Source: Saccoglossus kowalevskii
Taxonomy: Eukaryota > Hemichordata > Enteropneusta > Harrimaniidae
Assembly (NCBI RefSeq): GCF_000003605.2
Contig: NW_003114628.1
Coordinates: 1-35,700, forward strand
Direction: 5' to 3'
Length of the DNA stretch: 35,700 nt
Position numbers and translations under genes: made by a program. The notes under the pieces are model-generated. The model saw nothing but the letters and a program-made list of their open reading frames with translations. It had not been told where the DNA came from and ran no database searches. Shown here piece after piece: positions 1 through 35,700 of this stretch (position 1 is the first letter of the stretch; the number at the start of each line of letters is the position of its first letter).

Positions 1-42
1 AAATACGACGCAAAACAACAAAAACTATTATATAGCACAATC

Positions 43-114
43 TGCCGAGACCAGGATTCGAACCTGGGTTATTGCGTGCACAACGCAATGTCCTAACCAC
101 TAGACGATCACGGC
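43..114 (-). tRNA. tRNA-His: Unit 1: tRNA-His(GTG), class T
   Basis: Loop TTGTGCA, so G37C and C38A; all other arms modal. Tail T5, with one extra base in the 3' flank (ctattatat). Same as units 11 and 51. Confidence 0.82.
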
Positions 115-146
115 TAGCTAGAGTCATGTTCGGATTACGTGCTACA

Positions 147-175
147 CAGTAAGCGACGAATAAGTATAGTGCATT
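147..175 (-). promoter_or_regulatory. Invariant block 33-61 nt upstream of each tRNA (example)
   Basis: The plus-strand block running from cagtaagcg to agtgcatt recurs with very few changes after nearly every tRNA copy. In the tRNA sense it reads from AATGCACTATACTTATTCG to CGCTTACTG and sits at about -61 to -33. It contains a weak TATA-like ACTATA near -55. Its constancy, compared with the variable sequence around it, could reflect a 5' element for pol III or simply recent homogenisation. Only one example is listed; each unit has its own. Confidence 0.4.
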
Positions 176-306
176 GATCTTGCATTTAATCTACAGTTTA
201 TGATGACTGCGTGATTATGTTTGCCAACCTGTTACCCTGGAAGTAAAATTGAATGTAGAATCCCAAAATACGACGCAAAACAAAAAAAACTACATATAGC
301 ACAATC

Positions 307-378
307 TGCCGAGACCAGGATTCGAACCTGGGTTATTGCGGCCACAACGCAATGTCCTAACCACTAGACGATCACGGC
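307..378 (-). tRNA. tRNA-His: Unit 2: tRNA-His(GTG), modal
   Basis: Modal sequence with the longest tail type, T8 (282-289), shared only with units 12 and 52. A and B boxes intact. Good candidate for an expressible copy. Confidence 0.93.
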
Positions 379-537
379 TAGCTAGAGTCTTGTTCGGATA
401 ACGTGATGCTCAGTAAGCGACGAATAAGTATAGTGCATTTAATCTACAGTTTATGATGACTGCGTGATTATGTTTGCCAACCTGTTACCCTGGAAGTAAA
501 ATTGAATGTAGAATCCCAAAATACGACGCAAAACAAC

Positions 538-542
538 AAAAA
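538..542 (-). terminator. Pol III type T5 terminator (example)
   Basis: AAAAA on the plus strand gives TTTTT in the transcript sense, starting 18 nt after the 3' end of unit 3. The same position holds T5 in about half of the units, T7 or T8 in some, and an interrupted run in others. The tail type is given in each tRNA entry. Confidence 0.8.
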
Positions 543-559
543 CTACATATAGCACAATC

Positions 560-631
560 TGCCGAGACCAGGATTTGAACCTGGGTTATTGCGGGCACAA
601 CGCAATGTCCTAACCACTAGACGATCACGGC
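560..631 (-). tRNA. tRNA-His: Unit 3: tRNA-His(GTG), class H
   Basis: Class H loop (C37) with an intact T stem, and G57A in the T loop, which keeps a purine. Tail T5. Copied in unit 53. Confidence 0.82.
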
Positions 632-816
632 TAGCTAGAGTCATGTTCGGATTACGTGCTATTCAGTAAGCGACGAATAAGTATAGTGCATTGATCTTGC
701 ATTTAATCTGAAGTTTATAATGACTGCGTGATTATGTTTGCTAACCTGTTACCCTTGAAACGAATTGAATGTAGAATCCCAAAATACGACTCAAAACAAC
801 GACATAACGCACAATC

Positions 817-888
817 TGCCGAGACCAGGATTCGAACCTGGGTTATTGCGGTCACAATGGAATGTCCTATCCACTAGACGATCACGGC
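817..888 (-). pseudogene. Unit 4: tRNA-His-like, class D
   Basis: Broken anticodon stem with C29-C41 and A31-C39 mismatches; T20A. D stem is modal. Tail T4. Unlike other class D units, its 5' flank is the ctagctagagtc type, so it is a D/G hybrid at its 5' edge. Confidence 0.72.
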
Positions 889-1079
889 TAGCTAGAGTCA
901 TGTTCGGATTACGTGTTACGCGGTAAGCGACGAATAAGTATAGTGCATTGAACTTGCATTTAAACTACAGTTTATAATGACTGCGTGATTATGATTCGTA
1001 ACCTGTCACTCTGAAATGGAATTGAATGTAGAATTCCAAAATACGACGCAAAACAACAAAAACTACATATAGCACAATC

Positions 1080-1151
1080 TGCCGAGACCAGGATTCGAAA
1101 CTGAGTTATTGCGGGCACAACGCAATGTCCTAACCACTAGACGATCACGGC
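1080..1151 (-). tRNA. tRNA-His: Unit 5: tRNA-His(GTG), class H, B box G53T
   Basis: C37 loop. G53T breaks the conserved 53-61 pair of the B box; C49T adds a wobble. Tail T5. Copy at unit 45 lacks C49T. Probably weak or inactive. Confidence 0.62.
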
Positions 1152-1347
1152 TAGCTAGAGTCATGTTCGGATAACGTGATGCTCAGTAAGCGACGAATAA
1201 GTATAGTGCATTTATTTTGCATTTAATCTTCAGTTTATGATGACTGCAGTGCGTTATTATGTTTGCTAACATGTTAACCTGGAAAAGAATTGAAAGTAGA
1301 ATCCCAAAATACGACTCAAAACAACAAAAACTACATATCGCACAATC

Positions 1348-1419
1348 TGCCGAGACCAGGATTCGAACCTGGGTTATTGCGGCCACAACGCAATGTCCTA
1401 ACCACTAGACGATCACGGC
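1348..1419 (-). tRNA. tRNA-His: Unit 6: tRNA-His(GTG), modal
   Basis: Modal sequence. Tail T5, 3' flank of the tatcgcac type. The 5' flank has catattcgg. Copied in unit 46. Confidence 0.93.
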
Positions 1420-1611
1420 TAGCTAGAGTCATATTCGGATAACGTGATGCTCAGTAAGCGACGAATAAGTATAGTGCATTGATCCTGCATTTAATCTACA
1501 GTTTATGATGACTGCGTGATTATGTTTGCCAACCTGTTACCCTGGAAGTAAAATTGAATGTAGAATCCCAAAATACGACTCAAAACAACAAGAACTACAT
1601 ATAGCACAATG

Positions 1612-1683
1612 TGCCGAGACCAGGATTCGAACCTGGGTTATTGCGGCCACAACGCAATGTCCTAACCACTAGACGATTACGGC
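1612..1683 (-). tRNA. tRNA-His: Unit 7: tRNA-His(GTG), G6A
   Basis: G6A gives a second acceptor mismatch (A6-C67) next to U5-U68. Otherwise modal. Split tail; 3' flank reads caatg rather than caatc. Copied in unit 47. Confidence 0.82.
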
Positions 1684-1870
1684 TAGCTAGAGTCATGTTC
1701 GGATAACGTGATGCTCAGTAAGCGACGAATAAGTATAGTGCATTTATTTTGCATTTAATCTACAGTTTATAATGATTGCGTGATTATGATTCGTAACCTC
1801 TTACCCTTGAAACGAATTGAATGTAGAATCCCAAAATAAACGACTCAAAACAACGACATAACGTACAATC

Positions 1871-1942
1871 TGCCGAGACCAGGATTCGAACCTGGGTTAT
1901 TGCGGTCACAATGGAATGTCCTATCCACTATACGATCACGGC
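1871..1942 (-). pseudogene. Unit 8: tRNA-His-like, class D, C12A
   Basis: Class D anticodon stem, plus C12A giving A12-G23 in the D stem. Tail T4. 3' flank has cgtac for cgcac. Copied in unit 48. Confidence 0.72.
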
Positions 1943-2131
1943 TAGCCAGTCATGTTCTGATTACGTGTTACGCTGTAAGCGACGAATAAGTATAGTGCAT
2001 TGAACTTGCATTTAATCTACAGTTTATAATGACTGCGTGATTATGATTCGTAACCTGTAACTCTGAAATGGAATTGAATGTAGAATCCCAAAATACGACT
2101 CAAAACAACAAGAACTACATATAGCACAATC

Positions 2132-2203
2132 TGCCGAGACCAGGATTCGAACCTGGGTTATTGCGGCCACAACGAAATGTCCTAACCACTAGACGATCAC
2201 GGC
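2132..2203 (-). tRNA. tRNA-His: Unit 9: tRNA-His(GTG), G29T
   Basis: G29T leaves a T29-C41 mismatch in the anticodon stem. Class G loop. Split tail. Copied in unit 49. Confidence 0.8.
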
Positions 2204-2395
2204 TAGCTAGAGTCATGTTCGGATTACGTGCTACTCAGTAAGCGACGAATAAGTATAGTGCATTGATCTTGCATTTAATCTACAGTTTATGATGACTGCG
2301 TGATTATGTTTGCCAACCTGTTACCCTGGAAGTAAAATTGAATGCAGAATTCCAAAATACGACGCAAAACAACAAGAACTACATATAGCACAATC

Positions 2396-2467
2396 TGCCG
2401 AGACCAGGATTCGAACCTGGGTTATTGCGGCCACAACGCAATGTCCTAACCACTAGACGATCACGGC
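2396..2467 (-). tRNA. tRNA-His: Unit 10: tRNA-His(GTG), modal
   Basis: Modal sequence. Split tail. The 5' flank lacks the agagt pentamer (ctagctcatg), a marker shared only with unit 50. Confidence 0.92.
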
Positions 2468-2654
2468 TAGCTCATGTTCGGATTACGTGCTACTCAGTAA
2501 GCGACGAATAAGTATAGCGCATTGATCTTGCATTTAATCTACAGTTTATGATGACTGCGTGATTATGTTTGCCAACCTGTTACCCTGGAAGTAAAATTGA
2601 ATGCAGAATTCCAAAATACGACGCAAAACAACAAAAACTACATATAGCACAATC

Positions 2655-2726
2655 TGCCGAGACCAGGATTCGAACCTGGGTTATTGCGTGCACAACGCAA
2701 TGTCCTAACCACTAGACGATCACGGC
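2655..2726 (-). tRNA. tRNA-His: Unit 11: tRNA-His(GTG), class T
   Basis: Loop TTGTGCA, other arms modal. Tail T5. Matches unit 1 (offset 2,612) and unit 51. Confidence 0.82.
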
Positions 2727-2918
2727 TAGCTAGAGTCATGTTCGGATTACGTGCTACACAGTAAGCGACGAATAAGTATAGTGCATTGATCTTGCATTTA
2801 ATCTACAGTTTATGATGACTGCGTGATTATGTTTGCCAACCTGTTACCCTGGAAGTAAAATTGAATGTAGAATCCCAAAATACGACGCAAAACAAAAAAA
2901 ACTACATATAGCACAATC

Positions 2919-2990
2919 TGCCGAGACCAGGATTCGAACCTGGGTTATTGCGGCCACAACGCAATGTCCTAACCACTAGACGATCACGGC
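2919..2990 (-). tRNA. tRNA-His: Unit 12: tRNA-His(GTG), modal
   Basis: Modal sequence with T8 tail. The 5' flank reads gtcttgttcgg, as in units 2 and 52. Confidence 0.93.
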
Positions 2991-3175
2991 TAGCTAGAGT
3001 CTTGTTCGGATAACGTGATGCTCAGTAAGCGACGAATAAAGTATAGTGCATTTATTTGCATTTAATCTGAAGTTTATAATGACTACGTGAATTATGTTTG
3101 CTAACCTGTAACCTTGAAACGAATTGAATGTAGAATCCCAAAATACGACTCAAAATAACGACATAACGCACAATC

Positions 3176-3246
3176 TGCCGAGACAGGATTCGAACCTGGG
3201 TTATTGCGGTCACAATGGAATGTCCTATCCACTATACGATCACGGC
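3176..3246 (-). pseudogene. Unit 13: tRNA-His-like, class D, 71 nt
   Basis: Class D with C12A and a one-base deletion in the 3' strand of the T stem (gagacagg), which breaks the T arm. Tail T4. Confidence 0.75.
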
Positions 3247-3435
3247 TAGCCAGTCATGTTATGATTACGTGTTACGCTGTAAGCGACGAATAAGTATAGT
3301 GCATTGAACTTGCATTTAATCTACAGTTTATAATGACTGCGTGATTATGATTCGTAACCTGTTACTCTGAAATGGAATTGAATGTAGAATCTCAAAATAC
3401 GACTCAAAACAACAAAAACTACATATCGCACAATC

Positions 3436-3507
3436 TGCCGAGACCAGGATTTGAACCTGGGTTATTGCGGCCACAACGCAATGTCCTAACCACTAGACGA
3501 TCACGGC
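3436..3507 (-). tRNA. tRNA-His: Unit 14: tRNA-His(GTG), G57A
   Basis: Class G with G57A, a purine-for-purine change in the T loop. Tail T5. Confidence 0.9.
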
Positions 3508-3698
3508 TAGCTAGAGTCATGTTCGGATTACGTGCTACTCAGTAAGCGACGAATAAGTATAGTGCATTGATCTTGCATTTAATCTACAGTTGATGATGAC
3601 TGCGTAATTATGTTTGCTAACCTGTCACTCTGAAATGGAATTGAATGTAGAATTCCAAAATACGACGCAAAACAACAAAAACTACATATAGCACAATC

Positions 3699-3770
3699 TG
3701 CCGAGAACAGGATTCGAAACTGGGTTATTGCGGGCACAACGCAATGTCCTAACCACTAGACGATCACGGC
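3699..3770 (-). tRNA. tRNA-His: Unit 15: tRNA-His(GTG), class H, damaged T stem
   Basis: C37 loop; G53T and G65T break both ends of the T stem. Tail T5. The 5' flank has catgttcgtat, shared with unit 55. Confidence 0.58.
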
Positions 3771-3961
3771 TAGCTAGAGTCATGTTCGTATAACGTGATG
3801 CTCAGTAAGCGACGAATAAGTATAGTGCATTTATTTTGCATTTAATCTACAGTTTATGATGACTGCGTTATTATGTTTTCTAACCTGTTACCCTGGAAAA
3901 GAATTGAAAGTAGAATCCCGAAATACGACTCAAAACAACAAAAACTACATATCGCACAATC

Positions 3962-4033
3962 TGCCGAGACCAGGATTCGAACCTGAGTTATTGCGGTCAC
4001 AATGGAATGTCCTATCCACTAGACGATCACGGC
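3962..4033 (-). pseudogene. Unit 16: tRNA-His-like, class D
   Basis: Class D anticodon stem with C49T (T49-G65 wobble). D stem modal. Tail T5. Confidence 0.7.
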
Positions 4034-4216
4034 TAGCCAGTCATGTCCTGATTAGGTGCTACTCAGTAAGCGACGAATAAGTATAGTGCATTGATCTTGC
4101 ATTTAATCTGAAGTTTATAATGACTGCGTGATTATGTTTGCTAACCTGTTACCCTTGAAACGAATTGAATGTAGAATCCCAAAATACGACTCAAAACAAC
4201 GACATAACGCACAATC

Positions 4217-4288
4217 TGCCGAGACCAGGATTCGAACCTGGGTTATTGCGGCCACAACGCAATGTCCTAACCACTAGACGATCACGGC
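4217..4288 (-). tRNA. tRNA-His: Unit 17: tRNA-His(GTG), modal
   Basis: Modal sequence. Tail T4 in a cgacataacgcac 3' flank. Confidence 0.92.
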
Positions 4289-4480
4289 TAGCTAGAGTCA
4301 TGTTCGGATTACGTGCTACTCAGTAAGCGACGAATAAGTATAGTGCATTGATCTTGCATTTAATCTACAGTTTATGATGACTGCGTGATTATGTTTGCCA
4401 ACCTGTTACCCTGGAAGTAAAATTGAATGCAGAATTCCAAAATACGACGCAAAACAACAAGAACTACATATAGCACAATC

Positions 4481-4552
4481 TGCCGAGACCAGGATTCGAA
4501 CCTGGGTTATTGCGGCCACAACGCAATGTCCTAACCACTAGACGATCACGGC
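4481..4552 (-). tRNA. tRNA-His: Unit 18: tRNA-His(GTG), modal
   Basis: Modal sequence. Split tail. The 5' flank has cagtaagtgacg, a rare change in the otherwise constant upstream block, shared with unit 115. Confidence 0.92.
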
Positions 4553-4744
4553 TAGCTAGAGTCATGTTCGGATTACGTGCTACTCAGTAAGTGACGAATA
4601 AGTATAGTGCATTGATCTTGCATTTAACCTACAGTTTATGATGACTGCGTGATTATGTTTGCCAACCTGTTACCCTGGAAGTAAAATTGAATGTAGAATC
4701 CCAAAATACGACGCAAAACAACACAAACTACATATAGCACAATC

Positions 4745-4816
4745 TGCCGAGACCAGGATTCGAACCTGGGTTACTGCGGGCACAACGCAATGTCCTAACC
4801 ACTAGACGATCACGGC
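4745..4816 (-). tRNA. tRNA-His: Unit 19: tRNA-His(GTG), class H, A43G
   Basis: C37 loop with intact T stem; A43G gives a T27-G43 wobble. The tail run is broken to TTT (cacaaac), leaving a distal TTTT. Copied in unit 116. Confidence 0.82.
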
Positions 4817-5008
4817 TAGCTAGAGTCATGTTCGGATTACGTGCTACACAGTAAGCGACGAATAAGTATAGTGCATTGATCTTGCATTTAATCTACAGTT
4901 TATGATGACTGCGTGATTATGTTTGCCAACCTGTTACCCTGGAAGTAAAATTGAATGTAGAATCCCAAAATACGACGCAAAACAACAAAAACTACATATA
5001 GCACATTC

Positions 5009-5080
5009 TGCCGAGACCAGGATTCGAACCTGGGTTATTGCGGCCACAACGCAATGTCCTAACCACAAGACGATCACGGC
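5009..5080 (-). tRNA. tRNA-His: Unit 20: tRNA-His(GTG), A14T
   Basis: A14T removes an almost universal base of the D loop and A box. Other arms modal. Tail T5. Its copy, unit 117, is truncated. Confidence 0.78.
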
Positions 5081-5273
5081 TACCTAGAGTCATGTTCGGA
5101 TAACGTGATGCTCAGTAAGCGACGAATAAGTATAGTGCATTTATTTTGCATTTAATCTACAGTTTATGATGACTGCGTTATTATGTTTGCTAACCTGTTA
5201 CCCTGGAAAAGAATTGAAAGTAGAATCCCAAAATACAACTCAAAATAACAAAACAACGACATAACGCACAATC

Positions 5274-5345
5274 TGCCGAGACCAGGATTCGAACCTGGGT
5301 TATTGCGGCCACAACGCAATGTACTAACCACTAGACGATAACGGC
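5274..5345 (-). tRNA. tRNA-His: Unit 21: tRNA-His(GTG), G6T and G23T
   Basis: G6T adds T6-C67 beside U5-U68; G23T gives C12-T23 in the D stem. Tail: two TTTT runs. Unit 118 is the related copy. Confidence 0.72.
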
Positions 5346-5536
5346 TAGCTAGAGTCATGTTCGGATTACGTGCTACTCAGTAAGCGACGAATAAGTATAG
5401 TGCATTGATCTTGCATTTAATCTACAGTTTATGATGACTGCGTAATTATGTTTGCTAACCTGTCACTCTGAAATGGAATTGAATGTAGAATTCCAAAATA
5501 CGACGCAAAACAACAAAAACTACATATAGCACAATC

Positions 5537-5608
5537 TGCCGAGACCAGGATTCGAAACTGGGTTATTGCGGGCACAACGCAATGTCCTAACCACTAGACG
5601 ATCACGGC
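5537..5608 (-). tRNA. tRNA-His: Unit 22: tRNA-His(GTG), class H, B box G53T
   Basis: C37 loop, G53T. Tail T5. The 5' spacer has the private marker cagtaagttacg shared with unit 62, although unit 62 has an intact T stem. Confidence 0.63.
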
Positions 5609-5799
5609 TAGCTAGAGTCATGTTCGGATATCGTGCTACTCAGTAAGTTACGAATAAGTATAGTGCATTGATCTTGCATTTAATCTACAGTTTATGATGA
5701 CTGCGTTATTATGTTTTCTAACCTGTTACCATGGAAAAGAATTGAAAGTAGAATTCCAAAATACGACTCAAAACAACAAAAACTACATATCGCACAATC

Positions 5800-5871
5800 T
5801 GCCGAGACCAGGATTCGAACCTGGGTTATTGCGGTCACAATGGAATGTCCTATCCACTAGACGATCACGGC
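5800..5871 (-). pseudogene. Unit 23: tRNA-His-like, class D
   Basis: Plain class D, modal D stem and T arm. Tail T5. Copied in unit 63. Confidence 0.72.
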
Positions 5872-6054
5872 TAGCCAGTCATGTCCTGATTAGGTGCTAC
5901 TCAGTAAGCGACGAATAAGTATAGTGCATTGATCTTGCATTTAATCTGAAGTTTATAATGACTGCGGTATTATGTTTGCTAACCTGTTACCCTTGAAACG
6001 AATTGAATGTAGAATCCCAAAATACGACTCAAAACAACGACATAACGCACAATC

Positions 6055-6126
6055 TGCCGAGACCAGGATTCGAACCGGGGTTATTGCGGCCACAACGCAA
6101 TGTCCTAACCACTAGACGATCACGGC
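6055..6126 (-). tRNA. tRNA-His: Unit 24: tRNA-His(GTG), A51C
   Basis: A51C gives a C51-T63 mismatch in the middle of the T stem. Tail T4. Unit 64 is the intact counterpart. Confidence 0.82.
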
Positions 6127-6319
6127 TAGCTAGAGTCATGTTTGGATAACGTGATGCTCAGTAAGCGACGAATAAGTATAGTGCATTTATTTTGCATTTA
6201 ATCTACAGTTTATGATGACTGCGTTATTATGTTTGCTAACCTGTTACCCTGGAAAAGAATTGAAAGTAGAATCCCAAAATACGACTCAAAATAACAAAAC
6301 AACGACGTAACGCACAATC

Positions 6320-6391
6320 TGCCGAGACCAGGATTCGAACCTGGGTTATTGCGGCCACAACGCAATGTCCTAACCACTAGACGATCACGGC
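6320..6391 (-). tRNA. tRNA-His: Unit 25: tRNA-His(GTG), modal
   Basis: Modal sequence. Tail: two TTTT runs, 3' flank with acgacgtaac. Copied in units 65 and 135. Confidence 0.92.
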
Positions 6392-6582
6392 TAGCTAGAG
6401 TCATGTTCGGATTACGTGTTACTCAGTAAGCGACGAATAAGTATAGTGCATTGATCTTGCATTTAATCTACAGTTTATGATGACTGCGTAATTATGTTTG
6501 CTAACCTGTCACTCTGAAATGGAATTGAATGTAGAATTGCAAAATACGACGCAAGACAACAAAAACTACATATAGCACAATC

Positions 6583-6654
6583 TGCCGAGACCAGGATTCG
6601 AAACTGGGTTATTGCGGGCACAACGCAATGTCCTAACCACTAGACGATCACGGC
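6583..6654 (-). tRNA. tRNA-His: Unit 26: tRNA-His(GTG), class H, B box G53T
   Basis: C37 loop, G53T. Tail T5; the distal run is lost (gcaagacaac). Copied in units 66 and 136. Confidence 0.63.
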
Positions 6655-6846
6655 TAGCTAGAGTCATGTTCGGATAACGTGATGCTCAGTAAGCGACGAA
6701 TAAGTATAGTGCATTTATTTTGCATTTAATCTACAGTTTATGATGACTGCGTTATTATGTTTGCTAACCTGTTACCCTGGAAAAGAATTGAAAGTAGAAT
6801 CCCAAAATACGACTCAAAACAACAAAAAAATACATATCGCACAATC

Positions 6847-6918
6847 TGCCGAGAGCAGGATTCGTACCTGGGTTATTGCGGTCACAATGGAATGTCCTAT
6901 CCACTAGACGATCACGGC
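6847..6918 (-). pseudogene. Unit 27: tRNA-His-like, class D, T-arm changes
   Basis: Class D with G65C and T55A, the latter replacing the invariant T-loop T55 in the B box. Tail T7. Copied in unit 67. Confidence 0.75.
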
Positions 6919-7101
6919 TAGCCAGTCATGTCCTGATTAGGTGCTACTCAGTAAGCGACGAATAAGTATAGTGCATTGATCTTGCATTTAATCTGAAGTT
7001 TATAATTACTGCGTGATTATGTTTGCTAACCTGTTACCCTTGAAACAAATTGAAGGTAGAATCCCAAAATACAACTCAAAACAACGACATAACGCACAAT
7101 C

Positions 7102-7173
7102 TGCCGAGACTAGGATTCGAACCTGGGTTATTGCGGCCACAACGCAATGTCCTAACCACTAGACGATCACGGC
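7102..7173 (-). tRNA. tRNA-His: Unit 28: tRNA-His(GTG), G64A
   Basis: G64A gives C50-A64 in the T stem. Tail T4. Unit 68 is the counterpart, without this change. Confidence 0.82.
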
Positions 7174-7364
7174 TAGCTAGAGTCATGTTCTGATTACGTG
7201 TTACTCAGTAAGCGACGAATAAGTATAGTGCATTGATCTTGCATTTAATCTACAGTTTATGATGACTGCGTAATTATGTTTGCTAACCTGTCACTCTGAA
7301 ATGGAATTGAATGTAGAATTGCAAAATACGACGCAAGACAACAAAAACTACATATAGCACAATC

Positions 7365-7436
7365 TGTCGAGACCAGGATTCGAAACTGGGTTATTGCGGG
7401 CACAACGCAATGTCCTAACCACTAGACGATCACGGC
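7365..7436 (-). tRNA. tRNA-His: Unit 29: tRNA-His(GTG), class H, G53T and G71A
   Basis: C37 loop, G53T, and G71A giving C2-A71 in the acceptor stem. Tail T5. Counterpart unit 69 keeps G53. Confidence 0.58.
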
Positions 7437-7628
7437 TAGCTAGAGTCATGTTCGGATAACGTGATGCTCAGTAAGCGACGAATAAGTATAGTGCATTTAT
7501 TTTGCATTTAATCTACAGTTTATGATGACTGCGTTATTATGTTTGCTAACCTGTTACCCTGGAAAAGAATTGAAAGTAGAATCCCAAAATACGACTCAAA
7601 ACAACAAAAAAATACATATCGCACAATC

Positions 7629-7700
7629 TGCCGAGACCAGGATTCGAACCTGGGTTATTGCGGTCACAATGGAATGTCCTATCCACTATACGATCACGGC
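7629..7700 (-). pseudogene. Unit 30: tRNA-His-like, class D, C12A
   Basis: Class D with A12-G23. Tail T7. Copied in units 58 and 70. Confidence 0.72.
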
Positions 7701-7889
7701 TAGCCAGTCATGTTCTGATTACGTGTTACGCTGTAAGCGACGAATAAGTATAGTGCATTGAACTTGCATTTAATCTACAGTTTATAATGACTGCGTGATT
7801 ATGATTCGTAACCTGTTACTCTGAAATGGAATTGAATGTAGAATCTCAAAATACGACTCAAAACAACAAAAACTACATATCGCACAATC

Positions 7890-7961
7890 TGCCGAGACCA
7901 GGATTCGTACCTGGGTTATTGCGGCCACAACGCAATGTCCTATCCACTAGACGATCACGGC
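7890..7961 (-). tRNA. tRNA-His: Unit 31: tRNA-His(GTG), T20A and T55A
   Basis: Class G anticodon arm with T20A from the class D lineage, and T55A in the B box. Tail T5. Copied in units 59 and 71. Confidence 0.72.
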
Positions 7962-8152
7962 TAGCTAAAGTCATGTTCGGATTAGGTGCTACTCAGTAAG
8001 CGACGAATAAGTATAGTGCATTAAACTTGCATTTAATCTACAGTTTATAATGACTGCGTGATTATGTTTCGTAACCTGTTACTCTGAAATGGAATTGAAT
8101 GTAGAATCTCAAAATACGACTCAAAACAACAAGAACTACATATAGCACAATC

Positions 8153-8224
8153 TGCCGAGACCAGGATTCGAACCTGGGTTATTGCGGCCACAACGCAATG
8201 TCCTAACCACTAGACGATCACGGC
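8153..8224 (-). tRNA. tRNA-His: Unit 32: tRNA-His(GTG), modal
   Basis: Modal sequence. Split tail. Copied in unit 60; unit 72 is a mutated counterpart. Confidence 0.92.
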
Positions 8225-8416
8225 TAGCTAGAGTCATGTTCGGATTACGTGCTACTCAGTAAGCGACGAATAAGTATAGTGCATTGATCTTGCATTTAAT
8301 CTACAGTTTATGATGACTGCGGGATTATGTTTGCCAACCTGTTACCCTGGAAGTAAAATTGAATGTAGAATCCCAAAATACGACGCAAAACAACAAAAAC
8401 TACATATAGCACAATC

Positions 8417-8488
8417 TGCCGAGACCAGGCTTCGAACCTGGGTTATTGCGGCCACAATGGAATGTCCTATCCACTAGACGATCACGGC
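8417..8488 (-). pseudogene. Unit 33: tRNA-His-like, G/D hybrid
   Basis: 3' half of the anticodon arm is class G (loop TTGTGGC) and the 5' strand is class D (TTCCA), with T20A. T60G in the T loop. Tail T5. Copied in unit 73. Looks like an exchange inside the tRNA. Confidence 0.7.
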
Positions 8489-8677
8489 TAGCCAGTCATG
8501 TCCTGATTAGGTGCTACTCAGTAAGCGACGAATAAGTATAGTGCATTGAACTTGCATTTAATCTACAGTTTATGATGACTGCGTAATTATGTTTGCTAAC
8601 CTGTCACTCTGAAATGGAATTGAATGTAGAATTCCAAAATACGACGCAAAACAACAAGAACTACATATAGCACAATC

Positions 8678-8749
8678 TGCCGAGACCAGGATTCGAAACT
8701 GGGTTATTGCGGGCACAACACAATGTCCTAACCACTAGACGATCACGGC
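8678..8749 (-). tRNA. tRNA-His: Unit 34: tRNA-His(GTG), class H, G53T and C30T
   Basis: C37 loop; C30T is a tolerated T30-G40 wobble, G53T damages the B box. Split tail. Copied in unit 74. Confidence 0.6.
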
Positions 8750-8945
8750 TAGCTAGAGTCATGTTCGGATAACGTGATGCTCAGTAAGCGACGAATAAGT
8801 ATAGTGCATTTATTTTTCATTTAATCTACAGTTTATGATGACTGCAGTGCGTTATTATGTTTGCTAACATGTTAACCTGGAAAAGAATTGAAAGTAGAAT
8901 CCCAAAATACGACTCAAAACAACAAAAACTACATATCGCACAATC

Positions 8946-9017
8946 TGCCGAGACCAGGATTCGAACCTGGGTTATTGCGGCCACAACGCAATGTCCTAAC
9001 CACTAGACGATCACGGC
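8946..9017 (-). tRNA. tRNA-His: Unit 35: tRNA-His(GTG), modal
   Basis: Modal sequence. Tail T5. The spacer to its left has the tgactgcagtgcg insertion and aacatgttaacc. Copied in unit 75. Confidence 0.93.
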
Positions 9018-9209
9018 TAGCTAGAGTCATATTCGGATAACGTGATGCTCAGTAAGCGACGAATAAGTATAGTGCATTGATCTTGCATTTAATCTACAGT
9101 TTATGATGACTGCGTGATTATGTTTGCCAACCTGTTACCCTGGAAGTAAAATTGAATGTAGAATCCCAAAATACGACGCAAAACAACAAAAACTACATAT
9201 AGCACAATG

Positions 9210-9281
9210 TGCCGAGACCAGGATTCGAACATGGGTTATTGCGGCCACAACGCAATGTCCTAACCACTAGACGATTACGGC
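9210..9281 (-). tRNA. tRNA-His: Unit 36: tRNA-His(GTG), G6A and G52T
   Basis: A6-C67 in the acceptor stem and T52-C62 in the T stem and B box. Tail T5. Counterpart unit 76 lacks G52T. Confidence 0.7.
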
Positions 9282-9472
9282 TAGCTAGAGTCATGTTCGG
9301 ATAACGTGATGCTCAGTAAGCGACGAATAAGTATAGTGCATTTATTTTGCATTTAATCTACAGTTTATAATGACTGCGTGATTATGATTCGTAACCTGTT
9401 ACTCTGAAATGGAATTGAATGTAGAATCTCAAAATACGACTCAAAACAACAAAAACTACATATCGCACAATA

Positions 9473-9544
9473 TGCCGAGACCAGGATTCGAACCTGGGTT
9501 ATTGCGGCCACAACGCAATGTCCTAACCACTAGACGATCACGGC
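9473..9544 (-). tRNA. tRNA-His: Unit 37: tRNA-His(GTG), modal
   Basis: Modal sequence; 3' flank has caata for caatc. Tail T5. The 5' flank has gtcaggttcgg. Copied in unit 77. Confidence 0.92.
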
Positions 9545-11654: not shown

Positions 11655-11850
11655 TAGCTAGAGTCATGTTCGGATAACGTGATGCTCAGTAAGCGACGAA
11701 TAAGTATAGTGCATTTATTTTGCATTTAATCTTCAGTTTATGATGACTGCAGTGCGTTATTATGTTTGCTAACATGTTAACCTGGAAAAGAATTGAAAGT
11801 AGAATCCCAAAATACGACTCAAAACAACAAAAACTACATATCGCACAATC

Positions 11851-11922
11851 TGCCGAGACCAGGATTCGAACCTGGGTTATTGCGGCCACAACGCAATGTC
11901 CTAACCACTAGACGATCACGGC
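11851..11922 (-). tRNA. tRNA-His: Unit 46: tRNA-His(GTG), modal
   Basis: Modal sequence, Tail T5. Copy of unit 6 including its spacer. Confidence 0.93.
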
Positions 11923-12114
11923 TAGCTAGAGTCATATTCGGATAACGTGATGCTCAGTAAGCGACGAATAAGTATAGTGCATTGATCTTGCATTTAATCT
12001 ACAGTTTATGATGACTGCGTGATTATGTTTGCCAACCTGTTACCCTGGAAGTAAAATTGAATGTAGAATCCCAAAATACGACTCAAAACAACAAGAACTA
12101 CATATAGCACAATG

Positions 12115-12186
12115 TGCCGAGACCAGGATTCGAACCTGGGTTATTGCGGCCACAACGCAATGTCCTAACCACTAGACGATTACGGC
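12115..12186 (-). tRNA. tRNA-His: Unit 47: tRNA-His(GTG), G6A
   Basis: A6-C67 mismatch. Split tail. Copy of unit 7. Confidence 0.82.
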
Positions 12187-12373
12187 TAGCTAGAGTCATG
12201 TTCGGATAACGTGATGCTCAGTAAGCGACGAATAAGTATAGTGCATTTATTTTGCATTTAATCTACAGTTTATAATGATTGCGTGATTATGATTCGAAAC
12301 CTCTTACCCTTGAAACGAATTGAATGTAGAATCCCAAAATAAACGACTCAAAACAACGACATAACGTACAATC

Positions 12374-12445
12374 TGCCGAGACCAGGATTCGAACCTGGGT
12401 TATTGCGGTCACAATGGAATGTCCTATCCACTATACGATCACGGC
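12374..12445 (-). pseudogene. Unit 48: tRNA-His-like, class D, C12A
   Basis: Class D stem and A12-G23. Tail T4. Copy of unit 8. Confidence 0.72.
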
Positions 12446-12634
12446 TAGCCAGTCATGTTCTGATTACGTGTTACGCTGTAAGCGACGAATAAGTATAGTG
12501 CATTGAACTTGCATTTAATCTACAGTTTATAATGACTGCGTGATTATGATTCGTAACCTGTAACTCTGAAATGGAATTGAATGTAGAATCCCAAAATACG
12601 ACTCAAAACAACAAGAACTACATATAGCACAATC

Positions 12635-12706
12635 TGCCGAGACCAGGATTCGAACCTGGGTTATTGCGGCCACAACGAAATGTCCTAACCACTAGACGAT
12701 CACGGC
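12635..12706 (-). tRNA. tRNA-His: Unit 49: tRNA-His(GTG), G29T
   Basis: T29-C41 mismatch in the anticodon stem. Split tail. Copy of unit 9. Confidence 0.8.
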
Positions 12707-12898
12707 TAGCTAGAGTCATGTTCGGATTACGTGCTACTCAGTAAGCGACGAATAAGTATAGTGCATTGATCTTGCATTTAATCTACAGTTTATGATGACT
12801 GCGTGATTATGTTTGCCAACCTGTTACCCTGGAAGTAAAATTGAATGCAGAATTCCAAAATACGACGCAAAACAACAAGAACTACATATAGCACAATC

Positions 12899-22862: not shown

Positions 22863-22934
22863 TGCCGAGACCAGGATTCGAACCTGGGTTATTGCGGCCA
22901 CAACGCAATGTCCTAACCACTAGACGATCACGGC
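22863..22934 (-). tRNA. tRNA-His: Unit 88: tRNA-His(GTG), modal
   Basis: Modal sequence. Tail T5. Upstream block reads gacgactaag. Confidence 0.93.
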
Positions 22935-23125
22935 TAGCTAGAGTCATGTTCGGATTAGGTGCTACTCAGTAAGCGACGACTAAGTATAGTGCATTAAACT
23001 TGCATTTAATCTACAGTTTATAATGACTGCGTGATTATGTTTCGTAACCTGTTACTCTGAAATGGAATTGAATGTAGAATTCCAAAATACGACTCAAAAC
23101 AACAAGAACTACATATAGCACAATC

Positions 23126-23197
23126 TGCCGAGACCAGGATTCGAACCTGGGTTATTGCGGCCACAACGCAATGTCCTAACCACTAGACGATCACGGC
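23126..23197 (-). tRNA. tRNA-His: Unit 89: tRNA-His(GTG), modal
   Basis: Modal sequence. Split tail. Same as units 91, 98 and 100. Confidence 0.92.
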
Positions 23198-23388
23198 TAG
23201 CTAGAGTCATGTTCGGATAACGTGATGCTCAGTAAGCGACGAATAAGTATAGTGCATTTATTTTGCATTTAATCTACAGTTTATAATGACTGCGTGATTA
23301 TGTTTGCTAACCTGTTACCCTGGAAAAGAATTGAAAGTAGAATCCCAAAATACGACTCAAAACAACAAAAACTACATATCGCACAATC

Positions 23389-23460
23389 TGCCGAAACCAG
23401 GCTTCGAACCTGGGATATTGCGGCCACAACGCAATGTCCTAACCACTAGACGATCACGGC
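23389..23460 (-). tRNA. tRNA-His: Unit 90: tRNA-His(GTG), C67T, A46T, T60G
   Basis: C67T is a G6-T67 wobble; A46T and T60G lie in loops. Tail T5. Followed by the net 9-bp spacer deletion catgttagatgctc. Confidence 0.85.
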
Positions 23461-23642
23461 TAGCTAGAGTCATGTTAGATGCTCAGTAAGCGACGAATAA
23501 GTATAGTGCATTTATTTTGCATTTAATCTACAGTTTATAATGACTGCGTGATTATGATTCGTAACCTGTTACTCTGAAATGGAATTGAATGTAGAATTCC
23601 AAAATACGACTCAAAACAACAAGAACTACATATAGCACAATC

Positions 23643-23714
23643 TGCCGAGACCAGGATTCGAACCTGGGTTATTGCGGCCACAACGCAATGTCCTAACCAC
23701 TAGACGATCACGGC
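23643..23714 (-). tRNA. tRNA-His: Unit 91: tRNA-His(GTG), modal
   Basis: Modal sequence. Split tail. Offset 517 from unit 89. Confidence 0.92.
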
Positions 23715-23905
23715 TAGCTAGAGTCATGTTCGGATAACGTGATGCTCAGTAAGCGACGAATAAGTATAGTGCATTTATTTTGCATTTAATCTACAGTTTA
23801 TAATGACTGCGTGATTATGTTTGCTAACCTGTTACCCTGGAAAAGAATTGAAAGTAGAATCCCAAAATACGACTCAAAACAACAAAAACTACATATCGCA
23901 CAATC

Positions 23906-23977
23906 TGCCGAAACCAGGCTTCGAACCTGGGATATTGCGGCCACAACGCAATGTCCTAACCACTAGACGATCACGGC
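23906..23977 (-). tRNA. tRNA-His: Unit 92: tRNA-His(GTG), C67T, A46T, T60G
   Basis: Same as unit 90, but its 5' spacer lacks the 9-bp deletion. Tail T5. Confidence 0.85.
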
Positions 23978-24168
23978 TAGCTAGAGTCATGTTCGGATAA
24001 CGTGATGCTCAGTAAGCGACGAATAAGTATAGTGCATTTATTTTGCATTTAATCTACAGTTTATAATGACTGCGTGATTATGATTCGTAACCTGTTACTC
24101 TGAAATGGAATTGAATGTAGAATCTCAAAATACGACTCAAAACAACAAAAACTACATATAGCACAATC

Positions 24169-24240
24169 TGCCGAGACCAGGATTCGAACCTGGGTTATTG
24201 CGGCCACAACGCAATGACCTAACCACTAGACGATCACGGC
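24169..24240 (-). tRNA. tRNA-His: Unit 93: tRNA-His(GTG), A24T
   Basis: T11-T24 mismatch in the D stem. Tail T5. Copied in unit 102. Confidence 0.82.
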
Positions 24241-24433
24241 TAGCTAGAGTTATGTTCGGATAACGTGATGCTCAGTAAGCGACGAATAAGTATAGTGCAT
24301 TTATTTTGCATTTAATCTACAGTTTATGATGACTGCGTTATTATGTTTGCTAACCTGTTACCCTGGAAAAGAATTGAAAGTAGAATCCCAAAATACGACT
24401 CAAAATAACAAAACAACGACATAACGCACAATC

Positions 24434-24505
24434 TGCCGAGACCAGGATTCGAACCTGGGTTATTGCGGCCACAACGCAATGTCCTAACCACTAGACGATC
24501 ACGGC
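24434..24505 (-). tRNA. tRNA-His: Unit 94: tRNA-His(GTG), modal, D-type 5' flank
   Basis: Modal tRNA but followed by ctagccagtcatgtcc, the flank normally linked to class D. Two TTTT runs. Copied in unit 103. Confidence 0.92.
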
Positions 24506-24694
24506 TAGCCAGTCATGTCCTGATTAGGTGCTACTCAGTAAGCGACGAATAAGTATAGTGCATTGAACTTGCATTTAATCTACAGTTTATAATGACTGCG
24601 TGATTACGTTTCGTAACCTGTTACTCTGAAATGGAATTGAATGTAGAATCCCAAAATATGACGCAAAACAACAAAAACTACATATAGCACAATC

Positions 24695-24766
24695 TGCCGA
24701 GACCAGGATTCGAACCTGGGTTATTGCGGCCACAACGCAATGTCCTAACCACTATACGATCACGGC
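24695..24766 (-). tRNA. tRNA-His: Unit 95: tRNA-His(GTG), C12A
   Basis: Class G with A12-G23, a change otherwise found only in class D. Tail T5. Confidence 0.82.
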
Positions 24767-24957: not shown

Positions 24958-25029
24958 TGCCGAGACCAGGCTTCGAACCTGGGATATTGCGGCCACAACG
25001 CAATGTCCTAACCACTAGACGATCACGGC
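24958..25029 (-). tRNA. tRNA-His: Unit 96: tRNA-His(GTG), A46T, T60G
   Basis: Like unit 90 but without C67T, so probably an earlier member of that lineage. Tail T5. Confidence 0.88.
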
Positions 25030-25220
25030 TAGCTAGAGTCATGTTCGGATAACGTGATGCTCAGTAAGCGACGAATAAGTATAGTGCATTTATTTTGCAT
25101 TTAATCTACAGTTTATAATGACTGCGTGATTATGATTCGTAACCTGTTACTCTGAAATGGAATTGAATGTAGAATCTCAAAATACGACTCAAAACAACAA
25201 AAACTACATATCGCACAATC

Positions 25221-25292
25221 TGCCGAGACCAGGATTCGAACCTGGGTTATTGCGACCACAACGCAATGTCCTAACCACTAAACGATCACGGC
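25221..25292 (-). tRNA. tRNA-His: Unit 97: tRNA-His(GTG), C12T, C38T
   Basis: Shares the 5' half changes of units 43 and 85 but has a modal T arm. Tail T5. Counterpart of modal unit 88. Confidence 0.83.
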
Positions 25293-25483
25293 TAGCTAGA
25301 GTCATGTTCGGATTAGGTGCTACTCAGTAAGCGACGACTAAGTATAGTGCATTAAACTTGCATTTAATCTACAGTTTATAATGACTGCGTGATTATGTTT
25401 CGTAACCTGTTACTCTGAAATGGAATTGAATGTAGAATTCCAAAATACGACTCAAAACAACAAGAACTACATATAGCACAATC

Positions 25484-25555
25484 TGCCGAGACCAGGATTC
25501 GAACCTGGGTTATTGCGGCCACAACGCAATGTCCTAACCACTAGACGATCACGGC
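25484..25555 (-). tRNA. tRNA-His: Unit 98: tRNA-His(GTG), modal
   Basis: Modal sequence. Split tail. Copy of unit 89. Confidence 0.92.
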
Positions 25556-25746
25556 TAGCTAGAGTCATGTTCGGATAACGTGATGCTCAGTAAGCGACGA
25601 ATAAGTATAGTGCATTTATTTTGCATTTAATCTACAGTTTATAATGACTGCGTGATTATGTTTGCTAACCTGTTACCCTGGAAAAGAATTGAAAGTAGAA
25701 TCCCAAAATACGACTCAAAACAACAAAAACTACATATCGCACAATC

Positions 25747-25818
25747 TGCCGAAACCAGGCTTCGAACCTGGGATATTGCGGCCACAACGCAATGTCCTAA
25801 CCACTAGACGATCACGGC
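25747..25818 (-). tRNA. tRNA-His: Unit 99: tRNA-His(GTG), C67T, A46T, T60G
   Basis: Copy of unit 90, again followed by the 9-bp spacer deletion. Tail T5. Confidence 0.85.
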
Positions 25819-26000
25819 TAGCTAGAGTCATGTTAGATGCTCAGTAAGCGACGAATAAGTATAGTGCATTTATTTTGCATTTAATCTACAGTTTATAATG
25901 ACTGCGTGATTATGATTCGTAACCTGTTACTCTGAAATGGAATTGAATGTAGAATTCCAAAATACGACTCAAAACAACAAGAACTACATATAGCACAATC

Positions 26001-26072
26001 TGCCGAGACCAGGATTCGAACCTGGGTTATTGCGGCCACAACGCAATGTCCTAACCACTAGACGATCACGGC
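26001..26072 (-). tRNA. tRNA-His: Unit 100: tRNA-His(GTG), modal
   Basis: Modal sequence. Split tail. Copy of unit 91, but with catattcgg in the 5' flank. Confidence 0.92.
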
Positions 26073-26263
26073 TAGCTAGAGTCATATTCGGATAACGTGA
26101 TGCTCAGTAAGCGACGAATAAGTATAGTGCATTTATTTTGCATTTAATCTACAGTTTATAATGACTGCGTGATTATGTTTGCTAACCTGTTACCCTGGAA
26201 AAGAATTGAAAGTAGAATCCCAAAATACGACTCAAAACAACAAAAACTACATATCGCACAATC

Positions 26264-26335
26264 TGCCGAAACCAGGCTTCGAACCTGGGATATTGCGGCC
26301 ACAACGCAATGTCCTAACCACTAGACGATCACGGC
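26264..26335 (-). tRNA. tRNA-His: Unit 101: tRNA-His(GTG), C67T, A46T, T60G
   Basis: Copy of unit 92. Tail T5. Confidence 0.85.
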
Positions 26336-26526
26336 TAGCTAGAGTCATGTTCGGATAACGTGATGCTCAGTAAGCGACGAATAAGTATAGTGCATTTATT
26401 TTGCATTTAATCTACAGTTTATAATGACTGCGTGATTATGATTCGTAACCTGTTACTCTGAAATGGAATTGAATGTAGAATCTCAAAATACGACTCAAAA
26501 CAACAAAAACTACATATAGCACAATC

Positions 26527-26598
26527 TGCCGAGACCAGGATTCGAACCTGGGTTATTGCGGCCACAACGCAATGACCTAACCACTAGACGATCACGGA
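26527..26598 (-). tRNA. tRNA-His: Unit 102: tRNA-His(GTG), A24T and G1T
   Basis: Copy of unit 93 with an added G1T, which loses the 1-72 pair. Tail T5. Confidence 0.75.
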
Positions 26599-26791
26599 TA
26601 GCTAGAGTTATGTTCGGATAACGTGATGCTCAGTAAGCGACGAATAAGTATAGTGCATTTATTTTGCATTTAATCTACAGTTTATGATGACTGCGTTATT
26701 ATGTTTGCTAACCTGTTACCCTGGAAAAGAATTGAAAGTAGAATCCCAAAATACGACTCAAAATAACAAAACAACGACATAACGCACAATC

Positions 26792-26863
26792 TGCCGAGAC
26801 CAGGATTCGAACCTGGGTTATTGCGGCCACAACGCAATGTCCTAACCACTAGACGATCACGGC
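26792..26863 (-). tRNA. tRNA-His: Unit 103: tRNA-His(GTG), modal, D-type 5' flank
   Basis: Copy of unit 94. Two TTTT runs. Confidence 0.92.
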
Positions 26864-27052
26864 TAGCCAGTCATGTCCTGATTAGGTGCTACTCAGTAAG
26901 CGACGAATAAGTATAGTGCATTGAACTTGCATTTAATCTACAGTTTATAATGACTGCGTGATTACGTTTCGTAACCTGTTACTCTGAAATGGAATTGAAT
27001 GTAGAATCCCAAAATATGACGCAAAACAACAAAAACTACATATAGCACAATC

Positions 27053-27124
27053 TGCCGAGACCAGGATTCGAACCTGGGTTATTGCGTGCACAACGCAATG
27101 TCCTAACCACTAGACGATCACGGC
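27053..27124 (-). tRNA. tRNA-His: Unit 104: tRNA-His(GTG), class T
   Basis: Loop TTGTGCA. Tail T5. Left flank matches unit 95 (aaaatatgac), right flank matches units 1/11/51, so the junction of two array segments falls in or near this tRNA. Confidence 0.82.
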
Positions 27125-30449: not shown

Positions 30450-30469
30450 TGCCGAGACCAGGATTCGAA
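30450..30469 (-). pseudogene. Unit 117: truncated tRNA-His 3' end
   Basis: Only the 3' 20 nt remain (T loop, 3' T-stem strand, 3' acceptor strand and A73). The sequence jumps from gattcgaa straight into spacer (tgcatttatttt). Comparison with unit 20 shows a loss of 107 bp. Tail T5 is kept. No promoter A box. Confidence 0.9.
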
Positions 30470-33486: not shown

Positions 33487-33558
33487 TGCCGAGACCAGGA
33501 TTCGAACCTGGGTTATTGCGGCCACAACGCAATGTCCTAACCACTAGACGATTACGGC
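33487..33558 (-). tRNA. tRNA-His: Unit 129: tRNA-His(GTG), G6A
   Basis: A6-C67 mismatch. Tail T5. Copy of the hybrid unit 39. Confidence 0.82.
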
Positions 33559-33749
33559 TAGCTAGAGTCATGTTCGGATAACGTGATGCTCAGTAAGCGA
33601 CGAATAAGTATAGTGCATTTATTTTGCATTTAATCTACAGTTTATAATGACTGCGTGATTATGATTCGTAACCTGTTACTCTGAAATGGAATTGAATGTA
33701 GAATCTCAAAATACGACTCAAAACAACAAAAACTACATATCGCACAATC

Positions 33750-33821
33750 TGCCGAGACCAGTATTCGAACCTGGGTTATTGCGGCCACAACGCAATATCC
33801 TAACCACTAGACGATCACGGC
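33750..33821 (-). tRNA. tRNA-His: Unit 130: tRNA-His(GTG), C25T and C61A
   Basis: G10-T25 wobble, and G53-A61 mismatch in the B box. Tail T5. Copy of unit 40 with C61A added. Confidence 0.75.
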
Positions 33822-34012
33822 TAGCTAGAGTCATGTTCGGATAACGTGATGCTCAGTAAGCGACGACTAAGTATAGTGCATTAAACTTGCATTTAATCTA
33901 CAGTTTATAATGACTGCGTGATTATGTTTGCTAACCTGTCACTCTGAAATGGAATTGAATGTAGAATTCCAAAATACGACGCAAAACAACAAAAACTACA
34001 TATAGCACAATC

Positions 34013-34084
34013 TGCCAAGACCAGGATTCGAACCTGGGTTATTGCGGCCACAACGCAATGTCCTAACCACTAGACGATCACGGC
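34013..34084 (-). tRNA. tRNA-His: Unit 131: tRNA-His(GTG), C69T
   Basis: C69T gives a G4-T69 wobble next to U5-U68. Tail T5. Counterpart of unit 41. Confidence 0.85.
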
Positions 34085-34276
34085 TAGCTAGAGTCATATT
34101 CGGATAACGTGATGCTCAGTAAGCGACGAATAAGTATAGTGCATTGATCTTCCATTTAATCTACAGTTTATGATGACTGCGGGATTATGTTTGCCAACCT
34201 GTTACCCTGGAAGTAAAATTGAATGTAGAATCCCAAAATACGACGCAAAACAACAAAAACTACATATAGCACAATC

Positions 34277-34348
34277 AGCCAAGACCAGGATTCGAACCTG
34301 GGTTATTGCGGCCACAACACAATGTCCTAACCACTAGACGATCACGGC
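34277..34348 (-). tRNA. tRNA-His: Unit 132: tRNA-His(GTG), A73T, C69T, C30T
   Basis: Discriminator changed to T, with two wobble pairs; T arm intact, unlike unit 42. Tail T5. Confidence 0.77.
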
Positions 34349-34539
34349 TAACTAGAGTCATGTTCGGATAACGTGATGCTCAGTAAGCGATGAATAAGTA
34401 TAGTGCATGTATTTTGCATTTAATCTACAGTTTATGATGACTGCGTTATTGTGTTTGCTAACCTGTTACCCTGGAAAAGAATTGAAAGTAGAATCCCAAA
34501 ATACGACTCAAAACAACAAAAACTACATATCGCACAATC

Positions 34540-34611
34540 TGCCGAGACCAGGATTCGAACCTGGGTTATTGCGGCCACAACGCAATGTCCTAACCACTAG
34601 ACGATCACGGC
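34540..34611 (-). tRNA. tRNA-His: Unit 133: tRNA-His(GTG), modal
   Basis: Modal sequence. Tail T5. Left spacer matches that of unit 43 (gcatgtattttgc, gttattgtg); the tRNA does not. Confidence 0.93.
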
Positions 34612-34804
34612 TAGCTAGAGTCATGTTTGGATAACGTGATGCTCAGTAAGCGACGAATAAGTATAGTGCATTTATTTTGCATTTAATCTACAGTTTATGA
34701 TGACTGCGTTATTATGTTTGCTAACCTGTTACCCTGGAAAAGAATTGAAAGTAGAATCCCAAAATACGACTCAAAATAACAAAACAACGACATAACGCAC
34801 AATC

Positions 34805-34876
34805 TGCCGAGACCAGGATTCGAACCTGGGTTATTGCGGCCACAACGCAATGTCCTAACCACTAGACGATCACGGC
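34805..34876 (-). tRNA. tRNA-His: Unit 134: tRNA-His(GTG), modal
   Basis: Modal sequence. Two TTTT runs. Nearly the same 265-bp unit as unit 135, a local single-unit duplication. Confidence 0.92.
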
Positions 34877-35069
34877 TAGCTAGAGTCATGTTTGGATAAC
34901 GTGATGCTCAGTAAGCGACGAATAAGTATAGTGCATTTATTTTGCATTTAATCTACAGTTTATGATGACTGCGTTATTATGTTTGCTAACCTGTTACCCT
35001 GGAAAAGAATTGAAAGTAGAATCCCAAAATACGACTCAAAATAACAAAACAACGACGTAACGCACAATC

Positions 35070-35141
35070 TGCCGAGACCAGGATTCGAACCTGGGTTATT
35101 GCGGCCACAACGCAATGTCCTAACCACTAGACGATCACGGC
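35070..35141 (-). tRNA. tRNA-His: Unit 135: tRNA-His(GTG), modal
   Basis: Modal sequence. Two TTTT runs, with acgacgtaac in the flank as in units 25 and 65. Confidence 0.92.
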
Positions 35142-35332
35142 TAGCTAGAGTCATGTTCGGATTACGTGCTACTCAGTAAGCGACGAATAAGTATAGTGCA
35201 TTGATCTTGCATTTAATCTACAGTTTATGATGACTGCGTAATTATGTTTGCTAACCTGTCACTCTGAAATGGAATTGAATGTAGAATTGCAAAATACGAC
35301 GCAAGACAACAAAAACTACATATAGCACAATC

Positions 35333-35404
35333 TGCCGAGACCAGGATTCGAAACTGGGTTATTGCGGGCACAACGCAATGTCCTAACCACTAGACGATCA
35401 CGGC
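35333..35404 (-). tRNA. tRNA-His: Unit 136: tRNA-His(GTG), class H, B box G53T
   Basis: C37 loop, G53T. Tail T5. Copy of unit 26 (offset 28,750). Confidence 0.63.
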
Positions 35405-35596
35405 TAGCTAGAGTCATGTTCGGATAACGTGATGCTCAGTAAGCGACGAATAAGTATAGTACATTTATTTTGCATTTAATCTACAGTTTATGATGACTGC
35501 GTTATTATGTTTGCTAACCTGTTACCCTGGAAAAGAATTGAAAGTAGAATCCCAAAATACGACTCAAAACAACAAAAAAATACATATCGCACAATC

Positions 35597-35670
35597 TGCC
35601 GAGACCAGGATTCGAACCTGGGTTATTGCGGTCACAATGGAATGTCCTATCCACTATACAGATGCACGGC
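35597..35670 (-). pseudogene. Unit 137: tRNA-His-like, class D, 74 nt
   Basis: Class D with two extra bases between the D stem and acceptor stem (ctatacagatgcacggc). Tail T7. Last unit; its 5' flank runs off the window. Confidence 0.74.
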
Positions 35671-35700
35671 TAGCCAGTCATGTTCTGATTACGTGTTACG

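Follow-up and report, generated by a model that had tools for sequence, protein, structure and literature searches.

The 35,700-bp stretch of Saccoglossus kowalevskii DNA analysed here (contig NW_003114628.1, referred to as C824, and as the window in what follows) is a head-to-tail array of 137 tRNA-His copies, and this array is real, ordinary for its genome and of a kind already known. We consider it probable that it consists of RNA polymerase III tRNA-His(GUG) genes, forming one of several single-isotype arrays, and that its copies are kept alike by unequal exchange or gene conversion. An initial annotation, made from the sequence letters, had proposed 137 copies in one orientation with a period of about 261 bp, and the analysis bore this out: nhmmer found 137 copies, all of them on the minus strand, with a mean spacing of 261.4 bp from the first start to the last, the commonest of the 136 start-to-start intervals being 263 bp (46 cases) and 264 bp (34). 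Rfam returned 132 tRNAs at or above the gathering score (34.0–64.2 bits), ARAGORN called 128, every one of them His and on the minus strand, and Tandem Repeats Finder (TRF) reported two rows spanning 1–35699, with a period of 263 and a 90–91% match, and no short repeats. Each unit of about 263 bp is made of a single 72-bp tRNA-His gene and a spacer of about 191 bp. The array had also been described as unbroken and as filling the window. The tandem arrangement does extend throughout 1–35699, but it includes one truncated unit (a 158-bp interval), and the window turned out to be the entire contig, both ends of which fall inside the array, so that the figure of 137 counts this cut-out. A chance origin of the array is not in question.

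The satellite-like higher-order structure suspected in the same annotation is present as well. Runs of 9, 8, 7 and 5 consecutive units recur with at least 98.5% identity per unit, while the longest such run in 200 shufflings of the unit order comprised 3 units. The window thus shows a hallmark of satellite DNA, in that a repeat runs head to tail over a long stretch and carries block duplications of a higher order.

Judged from its sequence, the unit looks like a tRNA-His gene of a eukaryotic nucleus. Of the 135 copies of 72 nt, 133 have GTG at the anticodon, one has ATG and another, which is a fragment, has TAA, and A73 is found in 132. G-1 is not encoded, since the base at -1 is A in 133 of these copies; in eukaryotic tRNA-His, this G is described as being added by Thg1 (PMC9976931). 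Inspection by eye showed that CCA is not encoded at the tRNA 3' end either. All 137 copies have a stretch of four or more T beginning 12–26 nt past the tRNA end; together with the GUG anticodon, A73, the unencoded G-1 and the internal promoter boxes, this completes the features of a functional eukaryotic tRNA-His gene found here.

The array is not peculiar to this contig. In a genome searched as 572 Mb in 4,830 contigs, a 20-mer of the array gave 472 matches, those listed lying all on C824 and C1317, and a pattern running from the D arm to the anticodon gave 336, those listed lying on C824, C1317, C2137, C2206, C2500, C2577, C3441 and C343. The His-array contigs number at least seven (192,087 bp in total), and all five that were read over their first 300 bp begin in the repeat. 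Scaling from the window, an extrapolated 690–710 His copies (711 or 687) would be present genome-wide. As to dispersed single copies, the feature of tRNA-derived short interspersed elements, the matches listed consisted of the array contigs and a four-unit relict on C343.

Other isotypes behave alike. The 88 exact 20-mer matches of elongator Met are confined to three contigs (C392, C825 and C3121), where multiples of about 331 bp separate them. Initiator Met yielded 243 matches (at most one mismatch), those listed being mostly in steps of about 603 bp on two contigs, C341 of 61 kb and C3681 of 81 kb, with further matches on C2143 and C848; the genes on C285 and C3574 look solitary. Single-isotype arrays are also formed by Arg-TCG and Cys-GCA: the Rfam tRNA search of the genome scored 63 of 25,204 first-look candidates, among them 29 on C237 and 22 on C926, and the pieces read there showed these two isotypes. 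Within the five tRNA families covered, out of 20, single-isotype arrays are therefore found for His, elongator Met, initiator Met, Arg-TCG and Cys-GCA and, because at least four families besides His are so arranged, they are a habit of this genome and not a peculiarity of His. The initial annotation had held a single-isotype His array to be unusual, and had added that equal arrays of all tRNA families would speak against this. With both Met families, Arg-TCG and Cys-GCA arrayed, such a state was largely encountered and, similar arrays being also in print, the claim of unusualness did not survive.

The pattern of variation bears on how the copies are kept alike. Compared pairwise, the 135 units of the window have a mean identity of 0.906 and include 31 identical pairs, and the nearest relative of every unit lies within its own array, both in the window (135/135) and on C2500 (39/39). 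Taken with the recurring blocks, this fits exchange and block duplication inside arrays. On C2500 variability is 0.056 in the tRNA versus 0.112 in the spacer (circular-shift fraction 0.042), and in the window the values are 0.058 and 0.087. Indels are almost restricted to the spacer, the gap fractions of tRNA and spacer being 0.0002 versus 0.0082 in one array and 0.0000 versus 0.063 in the other. The CpG observed/expected ratio is 1.18 in the window versus 0.73 in nine non-satellite samples, and C-to-T changes at CpG are scarce (16/1750 versus 217/5228). Opposite to this general trend, G-to-A changes at CpG are more frequent inside the tRNA part than elsewhere (33/810 versus 45/2159). The CpG pattern speaks mildly in favour of a gene array that is unmethylated and usable. 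Upstream of the gene, a block of 24 nt (about -59 to -36) is nearly invariant in the window (0.039 by site permutation). It was dropped as a promoter element or protein-binding site, since it varies among the units on C2500 (diversity 0.15) and reaches just that permutation value, and no upstream block common to the five tRNA families was seen by eye.

One acceptor pair is broken almost throughout the array. In the window, 136 of the 137 copies have T at place 68, opposite T5 in most, and the remaining one has G. The 5:68 pair is formed in only two of 135 copies versus 125–134 for each of the remaining six acceptor pairs, and U5:U68 is the sole broken pair of 21 in 68 copies; the fully paired acceptor stem of a functional tRNA-His is thus not what these units offer. 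The usual animal form of tRNA-His has A68. A His gene with the canonical A68 3' end gave no match in the searchable genome sequence with either narrow or broad patterns, nor did the anticodon arm usual for animal tRNA-His when one mismatch was allowed, and these absences are limited by the fact that, of 38 contig starts sampled, 10 were wholly N and 5 more partly so, for which reason an intact His gene may sit in N stretches. A genome-wide pattern for a base other than T at place 5 retrieved four copies, each of them an A5 copy on a His-array contig; three of them, on C2137 and C3441, are fully paired, while the fourth, in the window, is not.

The relict on C343, a 651-kb contig, is made of four decayed His units flanked by other sequences (approximately C343:639342–640368). 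Its first unit matches the array consensus at 70 of 72 positions in the tRNA and at 150 of 181 in the spacer (p 0.0015). Read by eye, place 68 is T in units one and two, deleted in the third and A in the outermost. As the outermost relict has A68, like the usual animal form, T68 probably represents a derived change that predates the present arrays, the single A68 relict being thin evidence.

Several of these observations, and some further ones, weigh against an array of working genes kept alike by exchange. The U5:U68 mismatch means that the copies may be weak or dead genes. Among the 135 copies, other stem breaks are also frequent (24 with A31:C39, 23 with C29:C41 and 18 with U52:C60), and only 88 have an exact B box (GGTTCGAATCC). 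The contrast between tRNA and spacer in the window, by itself, is not significant (circular shift 0.061, with a bootstrap interval that includes 0), and the other three C343 units lack tRNA conservation (p 0.33, 1.0 and 0.38). Moreover, exchange is not visibly local: unit identity is flat with distance (0.903 between neighbours versus 0.906 between distant units), only lags of 40 and 9 units standing out, and local homogenisation was accordingly dropped.

Such points would suit a tRNA-derived satellite that has lost its gene role, tRNA-His being then provided by a few intact array copies or by a gene in unreadable sequence. To the mismatch in nearly all copies, this explanation can add that only one window copy of 135 and the three A5 copies elsewhere are fully paired, that tandem repeats abound in the genome (they make up at least 97% of the sequence in 16 of the 28 readable contig starts), that the window contains block duplications and that N stretches could hide a dispersed gene. 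We nevertheless hold it to be unlikely. The tRNA part varies less than the spacer and is nearly free of indels, GTG, A73 and the T-run have been retained, and the CpG ratio gives no overall sign of germline methylation decay, which is mildly against a methylated, silent satellite. In addition, a U:U in a stem need not kill a tRNA, because 16 of the 18 elongator Met copies read from this genome retain a mismatched U31:U39, and functional human tRNA-Met has it too. It is considerably more improbable that the array serves as a chromatin element (an insulator, a boundary or a centromere-like repeat) through bound TFIIIC and not through its tRNA product. The near-invariant upstream block in the window would fit such a role, tRNA genes are able to serve as boundaries, and a human tRNA tandem repeat is reported to bind CTCF (PMC4041453), but that block is not kept in the C2500 array and reaches just 0.039 by site permutation in the window. 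Hardly to be credited is an assembly artefact in which the tandem order, or the 10.5-kb duplication, came from misjoined alleles or collapsed reads. Although the contig ends inside the array, and the duplicated runs are 99.4–99.8% alike, as two alleles could also give, most units are distinct, other His contigs begin in the same repeat and the same type of array is found again for other isotypes.

According to the RNA polymerase III gene array that we favour, each 263-bp unit would be transcribed independently from its internal A and B boxes, transcription would end at the T-run just past the gene, and G-1 and CCA would be added post-transcriptionally. Unequal exchange and gene conversion within the array would keep the copies alike and would have made the block duplications, and through them the presumably derived A68-to-U68 change seems to have spread across copies. 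The use of the array would be the supply of tRNA-His, and a dosage role in His decoding is plausible. More tentatively, and with the balance rather against it, homogenisation may have driven this stem-breaking change through some 700 tRNA-His genes, overriding selection, so that U5:U68 would now be the normal form or else the animal would rely on a few re-paired copies (those with A5 on C2137 and C3441, and the G68 copy in the window). A limited look at the literature found no published report of such a spread of U5:U68, which may still exist in print. The question raised is whether this animal runs on tRNA-His with a homogenised, mismatched acceptor stem or keeps most copies idle. The shared U68 is a clean marker for whether arrayed copies are used, and it bears on whether homogenisation can carry a mildly harmful change through an entire gene family; if A68-to-U68 did spread in this way by concerted evolution, homogenisation would have overridden selection on one essential tRNA.

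Table 1. Coordinates of the array and of individual copies and duplicated blocks in the window
Feature	Position	Strand	Detected with
Tandem tRNA-His array, 137 copies	1..35700	-	nhmmer, Rfam, ARAGORN, TRF
Copy with the commonest tRNA form (35/137 identical): GTG anticodon, A73, U5:U68 mismatch	307..378	-	ARAGORN, Rfam
Sole window copy in which none of the 21 stem pairs checked is broken: G68, U5-G68 wobble; top Rfam score, 64.2 bits	17594..17665	-	
Copy with A5 (A5-U68 pair); other stem pair broken by A at place 70	21551..21622	-	
Truncated copy: final 20 nt of the tRNA alone, within the 158-bp unit	30450..30469	-	nhmmer
Block duplication, copy 1, offset about 10.5 kb (40 units); recurring runs 1155-2990, 5607-7961, 8224-9544	1155..9544		
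Block duplication, copy 2, partner of 1155..9544; runs 11658-13493, 16099-18453, 18716-20036	11658..20036		
8-unit block duplication, copy 1, lag of 9 units (about 2.4 kb)	22670..24766		
8-unit block duplication, copy 2, partner of 22670..24766	25028..27124		

Some further observations were made on the remaining contigs. The elongator Met array on C825 (C825:1–10000, period of about 331 bp) lies on the next contig number after the window, and Arg-TCG and Cys-GCA arrays, or parts of them, are found on C237, C926, C682, C1937, C3006 and C4368. Among the 28 readable contig starts, two are tRNA arrays (C825, chosen as the neighbour, and C2500), and the tandem repeats in the 16 mentioned above have mostly periods of 18–75 bp, which points either to a satellite-rich genome or to an assembly with many satellite-only contigs. 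A tRNA-Thr at C4103:95950–96100 has an encoded CCA end, which makes a bacterial origin possible for C4103 (122 kb). The mitochondrial contig, C4830 (17,037 bp), carries COX1 and ND6 opposite the strand of most genes, in an unusual order, and reads well under table 5, with no AGG and four AGA codons in ten genes; the AGA codons are at places that we take to be serine-like, so that the code is presumably not the standard vertebrate one. Compared with a lancelet, its gene order disagrees with what has been described for Asymmetron (PMC2034537).

Tandem tRNA repeats have been described in several lineages, with varying degrees of likeness to the array reported here. At human 1q23.3 there is a tRNA tandem repeat of variable copy number, which differs in its 7.3-kb units, present at 9–43 per allele, and in being bound by CTCF (PMC4041453). 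The Ser-Tyr-Tyr cluster of Arabidopsis is likewise a set of tandem tRNA repeats grown by duplication, whose genes are reported to be functional once outside the repeat, but it belongs to a plant, mixes isotypes and is methylated and silent in most tissues (PMC12308677). In Entamoeba, most tRNA genes are in tandem arrays of uniform units, at a copy number that the authors think exceeds the need, and a unit can contain as many as five tRNA genes, which in E. histolytica have short tandem repeats between them (PMC2652664); here, in contrast, there is one tRNA-His per unit and TRF gave only the period of 263. The tRNA clusters of teleosts and Nematostella reach fifty members and more, nearly all parallel, as in the window, although pairs in zebrafish and Nematostella are mostly of mixed isotypes, unlike those in the window (PMC2888827). 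For Hydractinia, tandem tRNA arrays are described for each of the 20 amino acids, and its non-coding RNA arrays resemble the window, the same authors having also seen arrays in Nematostella (PMC11067881). The passages of that work on arrays make no mention of a shared acceptor-stem mismatch, and the animal is a different one (PMC11067881). The features of the Hydractinia type are nonetheless found in Saccoglossus, both in the 137 evenly spaced, near-identical units of one orientation (mean identity 0.906) and in the arraying of several isotypes, five families being so arranged. To the few animals in which tandem tRNA arrays are known, this genome thus adds another, with at least five isotypes.

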